From Microbacterium salitolerans (lineage in GTDB: Bacteria > Actinomycetota > Actinomycetes > Actinomycetales > Microbacteriaceae), in the NCBI RefSeq assembly GCF_019720895.1, contig NZ_JAHKSH010000004.1, forward strand, positions 1 to 64,000: DNA of 64,000 nt, read 5' to 3'. Position 1 is the stretch's first letter. The number at the start of each line of letters is the position of its first letter. Under the pieces are notes generated by a model, which saw nothing but the letters and a program-made list of their open reading frames with translations, ran no database searches and was not told the DNA's origin. The translations under genes and the position numbers were made by a program. Shown here piece by piece: positions 42,534 through 44,802 of the stretch.

Positions 42534-43130
42534 TCACGGAACCGGGAGGGTCCGTGGCCGCCACGCCTCGCGGCGGGCCTCGAACTGCGTGATCTCGTCC
42601 TGATGACGCAGGGTGAGCCCGATGTCATCGAGCCCTTCGAGGAGCCGCCACCTAGTGTAATCGTCGATCTCGAAACCGGCCGTGAAGTCGCCGACCGTGG
42701 CGGTGCGTTCGACGAGGTCCACCGTCATCTGCGTGCCGGGATTCTGATCGATCGCCTCCCAGAACCTCTCGAGCGCGTCTTCAGAGATCGTCGCGGCAAC
42801 GAGGCCCTGCTTACCCGAGTTGCCGCGGAAGATGTCGCCGAAGCGCGTGGACAGGACGACGCGGAAGCCGTAGTCGCGCAGCGCCCACACCGCGTGCTCG
42901 CGGCTGGATCCCGTGCCGAAGTCGCGTCCGGCGACGAGGATCGACGCGTTCCGGAAAGGCTCCTGGTTGAGGACGAAGTCGTCATCCTGGCGCCAGGAGG
43001 AGAAGAGCGCGTCGTCGAAGCCCGTCTTCGTGACGCGCTTCAGGAAGACCGCGGGAATGATCTGGTCGGTGTCGACGTCGGTGCGCTTGAGCGGCGCGGC
43101 GACTCCGGTGTGGGTCGTGAACTTCTGCAT
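42534..43130 (-). CDS. leuD: 3-isopropylmalate dehydratase small subunit
   Basis: This 198-residue subunit pairs with LeuC to isomerise 2- to 3-isopropylmalate. The conserved opening [11 protein letters not shown] and the motif [10 protein letters not shown] are intact. Its ATG is one base after the leuC stop. Confidence 0.96.
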
Positions 43131-43131
43131 G

Positions 43132-44637
43132 TCAGGCCTCCGCTCCCGTCAGCGCGGGCTCGTCGATCGAATCGAGGTCGCTGGGGCTCGACAGCGTGCC
43201 GCGCACCGCCGTCGCCGCCGCCACGAGGGGCGACACGAGGTGCGTGCGCCCGCCCTTGCCCTGACGGCCCTCGAAGTTGCGGTTGCTCGTGGAGGCGCAG
43301 CGCTCCCCCGGCGCGAGCTGGTCGGGGTTCATGCCGAGACACATCGAGCATCCGGCGAAGCGCCACTCCGCACCGAAATCGGTGACGACCTTGTCGATCC
43401 CCTCCGCTTCGGCCTGCAGGCGCACACGGGCGGATCCCGGCACGACCATGACGCGCACGCCATCGGCCTTCTGGCGCCCCTCGATGATCGAGGCGAAGGC
43501 CCGCAGATCCTCGATGCGACTGTTCGTGCACGAGCCCATGAAGACGGCGTCGACGGCGATCTGCTTCATCGGGGTGCCGGGCTCGAGATCCATGTACTGG
43601 CAGGCCCGTTCGGCCGCGGCGCGCGCGTCGGGATCCTCGAACGACTCGGGCAGGGGAACGGACTCGCTGAGCGAGACGCCCTGGCCCGGGTTCGTGCCCC
43701 ACGTCGCGAACGGCTCGAGCTCGCCGGCGTCGAGGAACACCTCGGCGTCGAACACGGCACCCTCGTCGGTCGGAAGCGATCTCCAGTACGCGACGGCGTC
43801 GTCCCAGTCGGCGCCCGTCGGAGCGTGCGGACGGCCCTTGACGTACTTGAACGTCGTCTCGTCGGGTGCGACCATGCCGGCGCGGGCACCCGCCTCGATC
43901 GACATGTTGCAGACGGTCATGCGCCCCTCCATCGAGAGGGCGCGGATCGCGCTGCCGCGGAACTCGAGGACATACCCCTGGCCGCCCCCCGTGCCGATCT
44001 TCGCGATGACGGCGAGGACGATGTCCTTGGCGGTGACGCCCGGCTTCAGGTCGCCCTCGACGGTGATCGCCATCGTCTTGAACGGCTTCAGCGAGAGGGT
44101 CTGCGTGGCGAGGACATGCTCGACCTCGCTCGTGCCGATGCCGAAGGCGAGGGCGCCGAACGCCCCGTGCGTCGACGTGTGGCTGTCGCCGCACACGACG
44201 GTGACGCCCGGCATCGTGAGCCCCAGCTGCGGGCCGACGACGTGGACGATGCCCTGTTCTGCATCGCCCAGCGAGTGCAGACGCACGCCGAACTCCGCGG
44301 CGTTCCTGCGCAGCGTGTCGACCTGCGTGCGGCTCGTGAGGTCGGCGATCGGCTTGTCGATGTCGAGCGTCGGAGTGTTGTGGTCCTCCGTCGCGATCGT
44401 GAGATCGAGGCGACGGGGCTCTCGACCCTCCTCCCGCAGGCCGTCGAACGCCTGGGGGCTCGTCACCTCGTGGACGAGATGGAGGTCGATGTAGATGAGG
44501 TCGGGTTCGCCGTTCTCACCGCGGACGACGACATGGTCATCCCACAGCTTCTCGGCCAGAGTGCGGGGGCGATCCGGGATCGAATTCGGGGTGGACATGC
44601 TCAGCGTCAGCTCCTTCGCGTCGTGGGTGTCGGCCAT
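43132..44637 (-). CDS. leuC: 3-isopropylmalate dehydratase large subunit
   Basis: This 501-residue aconitase-family subunit binds a [4Fe-4S] cluster through cysteines in GSCTNSR and CSMCLG. The ATG at 44637 has GGAG 7 bases upstream and was chosen over an ATG at 44598, whose AAGGAG is 12 bases away. The chosen Shine-Dalgarno sequence is partly within the hairpin 44647-44686, which fits the attenuation model. It is followed by leuD. Confidence 0.94.
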
Positions 44638-44646
44638 CGACTGACT

Positions 44647-44686
44647 CCGCGACGGGGAGGCCTACTGCAGCGTGATCCCGTCGCGG
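44647..44686 (-). promoter_or_regulatory. Hairpin over the leuC Shine-Dalgarno sequence (attenuator)
   Basis: CCGCGACGGG (44647-44656) pairs perfectly with CCCGTCGCGG (44677-44686) around a 20-base loop. On the minus-strand RNA the 5' arm is inside leader codons 10-13 and the 3' arm ends within the leuC GGAG. Stalling of a ribosome at the leader's Leu codons would cover the 5' arm and free the start. Confidence 0.65.
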
Positions 44687-44715
44687 CAGCTAAGGAGGAG
44701 CCTGGCGAACCGCAC
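44662..44715 (-). CDS. Leucine-rich leader peptide of leuCD
   Basis: A 17-codon open frame starts with GTG at 44715 and reads MRFARLLLSCRDGITLQ, ending at a TAG inside the hairpin loop. Codons 6-8 are three consecutive leucines (CTC CTC CTT at 44700-44692). A TACTCT -10 box lies 6 bases before the GTG, so the message is probably leaderless. The position of the Leu triplet, just before the attenuator stem, argues that it senses leucyl-tRNA. Confidence 0.65.
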   Translation of the reverse strand: MRFARLLLSCRDGITLQ

Positions 44716-44721
44716 CCGTCG

Positions 44722-44752
44722 AGAGTACCAGAATGCTCAGCCCCGACCGTCA
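44722..44752 (-). promoter_or_regulatory. Putative promoter of leuCD
   Basis: On the minus strand TGACGG (44752-44747) and TACTCT (44727-44722) are separated by 19 bases. The -35 box lies inside the loop of the upstream terminator. Transcription would begin at or near the GTG of the leader peptide. Confidence 0.45.
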
Positions 44753-44775
44753 CGTGACGATCGGGGCTGAGCATT
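44732..44775 (-). terminator. Terminator downstream of the TerC gene
   Basis: A perfect 15-bp stem (AATGCTCAGCCCCGA at 44732-44746 with 44761-44775) encloses a loop that is itself palindromic (CGTCACGTGACG). It starts 27 bases after the TerC stop and separates TerC from leuCD. Confidence 0.75.
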
Positions 44776-44802
44776 GTGCGTGGATCACACCGTGCGCACC
44801 TG

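Follow-up and report, generated by a model that had tools for sequence, protein, structure and literature searches.

What is the short leucine-rich reading frame that lies ahead of leuCD in Microbacterium salitolerans, and how might it act on leuC? We addressed this question in a 64,000-nucleotide stretch of the genome, here called the window, for which a preliminary description had proposed a leader peptide that senses leucine and a hairpin that hides the leuC Shine-Dalgarno (SD) sequence. That observation was partly confirmed, and its interpretation partly supported.

Anatomy of the leuCD leader

The features of the locus, all on the minus strand, are as follows.

44722..44730 (-): candidate extended -10 element (TGG TACTCT), read from the sequence
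44662..44715 (-): leader open reading frame (ORF), GTG to TAG, MRFARLLLSCRDGITLQ, probably leaderless; from the sequence, a regular expression and covariance model R1
44692..44700 (-): Leu codons CTC CTC CTT, putative sensor codons and anti-SD; from codon counts
44689..44697 (-): P1 5' strand, CUCCUUAGC; inverted repeat I4, 8/9 complementary to the leuC SD region
44611..44619 (-): P1 3' strand, GCGAAGGAG, containing the likely leuC SD, AAGGAG (44616-44611); from the inverted repeat and pairing tests
44677..44686 (-): P2 5' arm, CCGCGACGGG; perfect inverted repeat, both-sided changes in alignment A2
44647..44656 (-): P2 3' arm, CCCGTCGCGG; perfect inverted repeat, both-sided changes in alignment A2
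44659..44662 (-): candidate pseudoknot strand 1, GGCC within the P2 loop; pairing limited to 4 bp in this copy
44632..44635 (-): candidate pseudoknot strand 2, GGCC; partner of strand 1
43132..44598 (-): leuC, revised start ATG 44598-44596; comparison with relatives and Pfam PF00330 (Aconitase family)
42534..43130 (-): leuD; Pfam PF00694

The leader frame (44715-44662, minus strand) has 17 codons and ends with TAG at 44664-44662. Its three Leu codons, CTC CTC CTT at 44700-44692, are followed shortly 3' by a perfect 10-bp inverted repeat (44686-44677 and 44656-44647). Both the 17-codon leader with three Leu codons and the perfect stem were as the preliminary description had them, and both the Leu run and the stem are conserved in relatives. 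The leaderless start that it proposed is probable: within the candidate extended -10, a TANNNT box at 44727-44722 is followed by six bases and then GTG, and this 6-nt spacing makes initiation at the first nucleotide plausible. A general sigma-70 scan of the window returned no promoter at the leader.

Covariance model R1, whose alignment rows included the window copy itself, matched 44715-44625 with 79.7 bits. Searches with Rfam 15 at gathering score returned only two tRNAs in the whole window and no family match at seven leuA and leuC loci; at E values up to 10, the interval 44560-44800 gave three sub-threshold matches, all on the upstream palindrome and none on the leader.

A gene for a TerC-family membrane protein (PF03741; 44803-45882) lies upstream on the same strand. 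At 44729-44778 there is a 25-nt inverted repeat, 92% complementary and without a spacer, that reaches into the leader -10. The ends of this repeat, CAGAATGCTCAG and CTGAGCATTCTG, resemble pairs of CAGAGTGCTCA and TGAGCACTCTG at the equivalent place in sister genomes. One copy of TGAGCACTCTG is present in the genome of the window, 61-71 nt ahead of the leuA leader, and another genome (G103) has two copies, both directly ahead of its leuC leader. The repeat is perhaps the operator of a leucine regulator, or else the terminator of the upstream terC gene; as a common operator pattern, TGAGCASTCTG was sampled in six genomes only.

Relation to the LEU element of leuA

Judged by its sequence, the window feature is a LEU element placed before leuCD, an identity that follows from a match to a model made solely from leuA leaders, from the published definition and from a leuA copy in the same genome. 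Model R2, built from 23 leuA leaders only, finds the window leader with 68 bits (E 3.1e-13), and it matches 17/80 named leuC loci and 30/30 leuC loci of the genus. The leuA gene of the window's own genome (contig C8) also has a leader ahead of it, MHQNRLLLLICRDETS*, accompanied by a similar stem. Seliverstov et al. (2005; PMC1262725) predicted the LEU element in front of actinobacterial leuA, and the defining passage of that paper gives it a leader peptide with a Leu run, a base stem formed by the Leu codons and the SD, a pseudoknot and an alternative hairpin. Its text speaks of leuA operons and of one transposase, and the word "leuC" is absent from it. In the window we found the Leu-run ORF, complementarity between the Leu run and an SD, and homology to leuA leaders; the location departs from the definition, the element being upstream of leuCD and not of leuA. 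We still assign it to the LEU elements because structure and homology define membership and location was how the element was found. The preliminary description missed both this identity, described for leuA, and the leuA copy in the same genome.

The start and Shine-Dalgarno sequence of leuC

The preliminary description placed the leuC start at 44637 and took as its SD the GGAG with which the P2 3' arm ends (44648-44645), hidden by that arm. The stem and the GGAG are indeed present, and GGAG follows the arm in 45/46 aligned leuC leaders. Only the window (L081) and L083, which share MADTHD, keep the frame from 44637 open into leuC, and an extended start may be used in these two. However, ATG is found at the equivalent place in just 4/46 leuC leaders (L015, L081, L083, and L104; TTG in four more), and in L015 and L104 the frame from it soon runs into a stop. 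The near relative L082 has ACG there, with a spacing that breaks the frame, and GGAG follows the arm in only 16/29 leuA leaders. The start common to the relatives lies downstream, at ATG 44598-44596, with the SD AAGGAG at 44616-44611. Thus, by comparison, leuC most likely begins at ATG 44598 and not at 44637, and the GGAG next to P2 is unlikely to be its SD, so that occlusion of the SD by the P2 3' arm is very unlikely. Some 30 nt beyond this GGAG is the likely SD, whose sequence complements the Leu codons.

Directly 3' of the P2 3' arm, AGT (44646-44644 in the window) is present in 44/46 leuC leaders and 2/29 leuA leaders; in the 29 leuA leaders this triplet is AGC in nine, CGC in seven and others in the remainder.

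Complementarity of the Leu codons to the leuC Shine-Dalgarno sequence

In the window, CUCCUUAGC (44697-44689) has the potential to pair with GCGAAGGAG (44619-44611) at eight of nine places, and sequence comparison makes this Leu-codon run the best-supported candidate for what hides the leuC SD. For the comparison we gathered 129 elements (100 leuC, 29 leuA; L090 was omitted as the same element as L001). A readable leader was present in 126 (L248, L299, and L316 were dropped) and a gene start was found for 120 (L272, L276, L282, L306, L308, and L314 were dropped), leaving 117 distinct elements, 89 at leuC and 28 at leuA; L012 and L252, identical in their leuC protein, may come from a single organism. 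All 126 usable leaders, leuC and leuA together, contain a run of at least two Leu codons.

Leu runs matched their own SD better than swapped ones. For the 89 distinct leuC leaders, the contiguous pairing score was 15.98 for own versus 14.78 for swapped pairs and the duplex energy was -9.86 versus -8.82 kcal/mol (0/2000 permutations for each), and the figures were weaker for the 28 leuA leaders (21/2000 and 45/2000 permutations); because the rows are related, these permutation figures, like the Fisher figures, overstate significance. The own score also exceeded that of a shuffled SD region in 81/89 leuC leaders, a control biased towards P1, since the SD windows had been picked for their anti-SD score.

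The codons of the run differ from leucine codons elsewhere. Counted over 110 distinct leader ORFs, 214/363 Leu codons inside runs and 1/49 outside them are CTT, compared with 11/496 in leuC itself at 14 named loci. This excess is what would be expected if CUU had been chosen as a slow or rare sensor codon, with SD complementarity as a by-product, but such an account does not explain why native pairs of Leu run and SD beat swapped ones, and CUC and CUU codons are normally read by one tRNA. We consider it unlikely. When run codons were redrawn synonymously from leuC usage, 27/91 leuC and 15/29 leuA leaders fell at 5% or below (mean for leuC leaders, -9.81 versus -8.13) and the window copy, at 0.41, did not pass; this energy test is weak because CUC also pairs well. 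In the leuC copies, the codons of the run look as if selected to pair with the SD, although relatedness among the rows inflates all of the pairing and codon figures given here.

The P2 hairpin, candidate pseudoknot, and alternative helix

The folding energy of the window region is by itself unremarkable (z scores of -1.64 and -1.06, equalled by 15/200 and 33/200 shuffles), and the stem is established as real by comparison of sequences across relatives, not by folding energy. In alignment A2, 99.6% of P2 cells are paired and 18 cells are changed on both sides, a number that 0/500 shuffles attained. All 10 pairs form in 113/117 distinct elements when arms are picked for best pairing. The preliminary description had proposed a search for compensatory changes in the stem; co-variation, however, is confined to two pairs, as many as 449/500 shuffles reach, and sliding P2 by -3 gives a covariation score of 0.146 versus 0.152 in register. 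Six of the ten pairs are invariant in A2. In the elements before leuA-like paralogs, another P2 pair, judged by eye, is A-U in place of G-C in 7/8.

For the candidate pseudoknot, own pairs scored 13.45 and swapped pairs 12.81 in the 89 leuC leaders (2/2000 permutations; 0/2000 across all 117 elements), and the score exceeded its own shuffled mean in 55/89 leuC and 26/28 leuA leaders. In the window this pairing is GGCC with GGCC, 4 bp only. An alternative helix between the 5' arm and a downstream repeat scored 17.31 in leuC leaders against 13.33 when shuffled and is weak in the window; we found no covariation in it (262/1000 permutations reach the value), though its sequence is conserved.

Two such folds could also be selected by a regulatory protein, in which case the LEU element would be a protein-binding RNA switch between pseudoknot and alternative hairpin. 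In the parts of PMC1262725 that deal with an earlier Streptomyces coelicolor study, mutations of the leuA leader are said in one place to have some effect inconsistent with classical attenuation and elsewhere, for the Leu codons, to be without influence on regulation, and a protein ligand is proposed there because the outcome of mutating those codons departed from what classical attenuation predicts. The six invariant P2 pairs, beyond what pairing alone needs, are compatible with a protein site. However, conservation extends to the leader ORF, to its start, to the Leu run and to the spacing of the promoter, none of which a pure protein site needs. The S. coelicolor mutations, moreover, would decide neither for nor against attenuation if the Leu codons are also the anti-SD, since sensor and effector would then have been altered together. 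We think a protein switch improbable, to about the same degree as the slow-codon account above.

The preliminary description was right that no U-tract follows the stem: the window scan gave no terminator-like site at P2, and the terminator hairpin with U-tract of a classical transcription attenuator was not found there. Leader translation might still set Rho-dependent or pausing-based attenuation of transcription, as leader peptides of this general class do elsewhere; the relevant part of PMC13236596 describes a leader peptide of Mycobacterium tuberculosis ilvB1 that acts on transcription. At the window stem, though, there is no intrinsic terminator, the 8 nt that follow the arm contain at most four T residues in 114/117 elements, and control of transcription would leave the SD-complementary Leu codons unexplained. 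We hold it to be quite unlikely, somewhat more so than a protein switch.

Predicted accessibility and a model for leuC control

We predicted SD accessibility with a model that allows nested folding only and takes the ribosome footprint as -12 to +16 from the P site. For 89 leuC leaders, the mean predicted unpaired probability of the SD was 0.20 in the free leader, 0.42 when a ribosome occupied the last Leu codon and 0.23 for one at the stop codon, and stalled exceeded stop in 74/89 in silico. The corresponding predictions for 28 leuA leaders were 0.32, 0.43, and 0.34, with stalled above stop in 17/28. In the window the predicted value increases modestly, from 0.16 to 0.32, and the close relative L083 has 0.18 when free and 0.16 when stalled, with no rise. 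A ribosome with its A-site anywhere from about five codons before the last Leu codon to about five after it (-5 to +5) gives the rise, which is thus not specific to the Leu codons. The predicted pattern fits translation attenuation.

The comparison, which shows homology to leuA leaders, a conserved ORF, promoter spacing and P2, and co-varying complementarity between Leu run and SD, points to a LEU element at leuCD in which the Leu run serves as anti-SD and pausing of the leader ribosome frees leuC; we put the probability of this reading at about 0.68. Transcription would start at the GTG. With ample charged tRNA-Leu, the leader ribosome would reach the stop codon in the P2 loop and so expose the Leu codons, which would pair with an SD brought close by P2 and, in many relatives, by the pseudoknot, giving low leuC translation. 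When Leu-tRNA is scarce, the ribosome would pause on the Leu codons and cover the anti-SD, and leuCD would be translated. Leucine starvation, which the preliminary description named as the signal that opens leuC, is thus retained as the likely inducer, but the SD that is freed would be the one complementary to the Leu codons and not one in the P2 3' arm.

Distribution of the element

We examined 80 named leuC loci and the best 30 genus loci of 149 genomes. A regular expression found a leader of the same anatomy at 47/110 of these loci (17/80 named, all Microbacteriaceae, and 30/30 of the genus), and R1 gave the identical 17/80 named loci. Sampling the Microbacteriaceae at nearly one genome per genus (86 genomes, 85 genera), we found leuC in 83 genomes and read 84 leuC-upstream loci (30 search loci and 54 stretches). 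The element is carried by 55/84, the window included, so the conservation in relatives on which the preliminary description depended was found in much of the family; the remaining 29/84 had no model match, and there was none at the named leuC loci of Curtobacterium (L011), Agrococcus (L016, L021), and Salinibacterium (L017). The leuC-like copies in G199, G209, G211, and G223 stand outside the family count. When matches were counted regardless of gene, R1 matched at least once in 149/149 and at least twice in 145/149 genomes of the genus; in the family it matched in 153/160 genomes and 83/85 genera. The phylum-wide count of 31/296, among which L229 looks false, is a lower bound because the filters were strict and the model was trained within one order.

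On a tree of 64 leuC proteins, presence of the element requires eight changes, two of them forced by well-supported branches, and its history at leuC appears patchy; one gain with losses and several gains are inseparable on this tree.

A TANNNT box lies 5 to 8 nt ahead of the leader start in 50/54 model-found leuC leaders versus 72/31885 other positions in the same loci. The count was made on model-found leaders because the regular expression itself demanded a -10 box; in the four misses (L248, L299, L308, and L316), the model start was mostly off the codon.

At leuA, the regular expression found leaders in 29/30 loci, the exception (L132) lacking one because the locus is cut by a contig end. 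Eight genomes of the genus have three or four R1 matches, and in seven of these one or two matches lie before a leuA-like paralog (eight loci). Three of the eight paralog proteins were checked, and all were 2-isopropylmalate synthases by NF002991 and all below the TIGR00970 cut-off. The extra match of G037 and a fourth match of G057 were judged false. Elements L168 and L170 (E about 1e-3) were rejected by eye, since no leucine gene follows and they have the look of coding sequence.

Elements before leuA-like paralogs are L161 to L167 and L169, and also L205, L217, and L264. By eye, seven of L161 to L167 and L169 have the stem CCACG..CGTGG instead of CCGCG/CGCGG, and L163 and L166 have a long GACCGGC/GCCGGUC loop pairing. 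LEU-like hairpins with leaders rich in Val, Ile and Leu also occur 333 to 414 nt upstream of leuB, at L260 (MRKQLVVIACRGGAS; G533:C1:1505618), L262 (MRQLVILSSRGEFR; G404:C2:337293), and L263 (MRHALILRCRGGA; G149:C1:863400); in all three, the nearby leuB scores above the cut-off of NF002898, 3-isopropylmalate dehydrogenase.

Discussion

The mechanism of the LEU element was left open in 2005, partly because the reported outcome of changing the Leu codons was at odds with attenuation. With the leuC copies there is a second, separate set in which its codon choice can be examined, and because their Leu codons look chosen for SD pairing, the question of attenuation becomes testable by synonymous changes. 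The element at leuCD would guard a second step of the leucine pathway, beside leuA, and the two would be linked under one kind of switch across much of Microbacteriaceae. A broader proposal, to which we give even odds, is that CUY codons were selected both as sensors of Leu-tRNA and as an anti-SD resembling that of 16S rRNA (CUCCUU), so that nine bases would be sensor and effector at once, and that the same Microbacteriaceae cassette at leuA, leuA-like paralogs and leuCD would form one translational switch at several leucine-pathway loci.

The closest known system is the LEU element of leuA, which likewise has a Leu-run peptide, pairing of Leu codons with the SD, a hairpin, a candidate pseudoknot and no terminator; the window copy differs in that it guards leuCD and its pseudoknot is weak. 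Canestrari reportedly described, in 2020, leaderless poly-Cys attenuator ORFs in mycobacteria. These, to go by their title, are alike in being short leaderless ORFs with a run of end-product codons before a biosynthetic operon, the codons there being for Cys. In the transcription attenuators of ilv and leu operons, such as M. tuberculosis ilvB1 and Escherichia coli leu, leader codons sense the end product in the same way, but an intrinsic terminator is used, and there is none at the leuCD stem. The section of PMC4046766 on Corynebacterium glutamicum leuA discusses as transcriptional attenuation a presumed leader with four consecutive Leu codons; the Leu-codon run is common to both, and the C. 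glutamicum leader is upstream of leuA. In Streptomyces lividans, leuL1, as presented in the pertinent part of PMC8079986, encodes the leader MRFGLLLLSCRGEGL*, is leaderless, and lies upstream of leuA without a typical Rho-independent terminator; the window peptide is MRFARLLLSCRDGITLQ and stands before leuCD. Searches of the open-licence PMC literature turned up neither a LEU element nor a Leu leader described at leuC, and the leuCD copy is a known element at a gene new for it.
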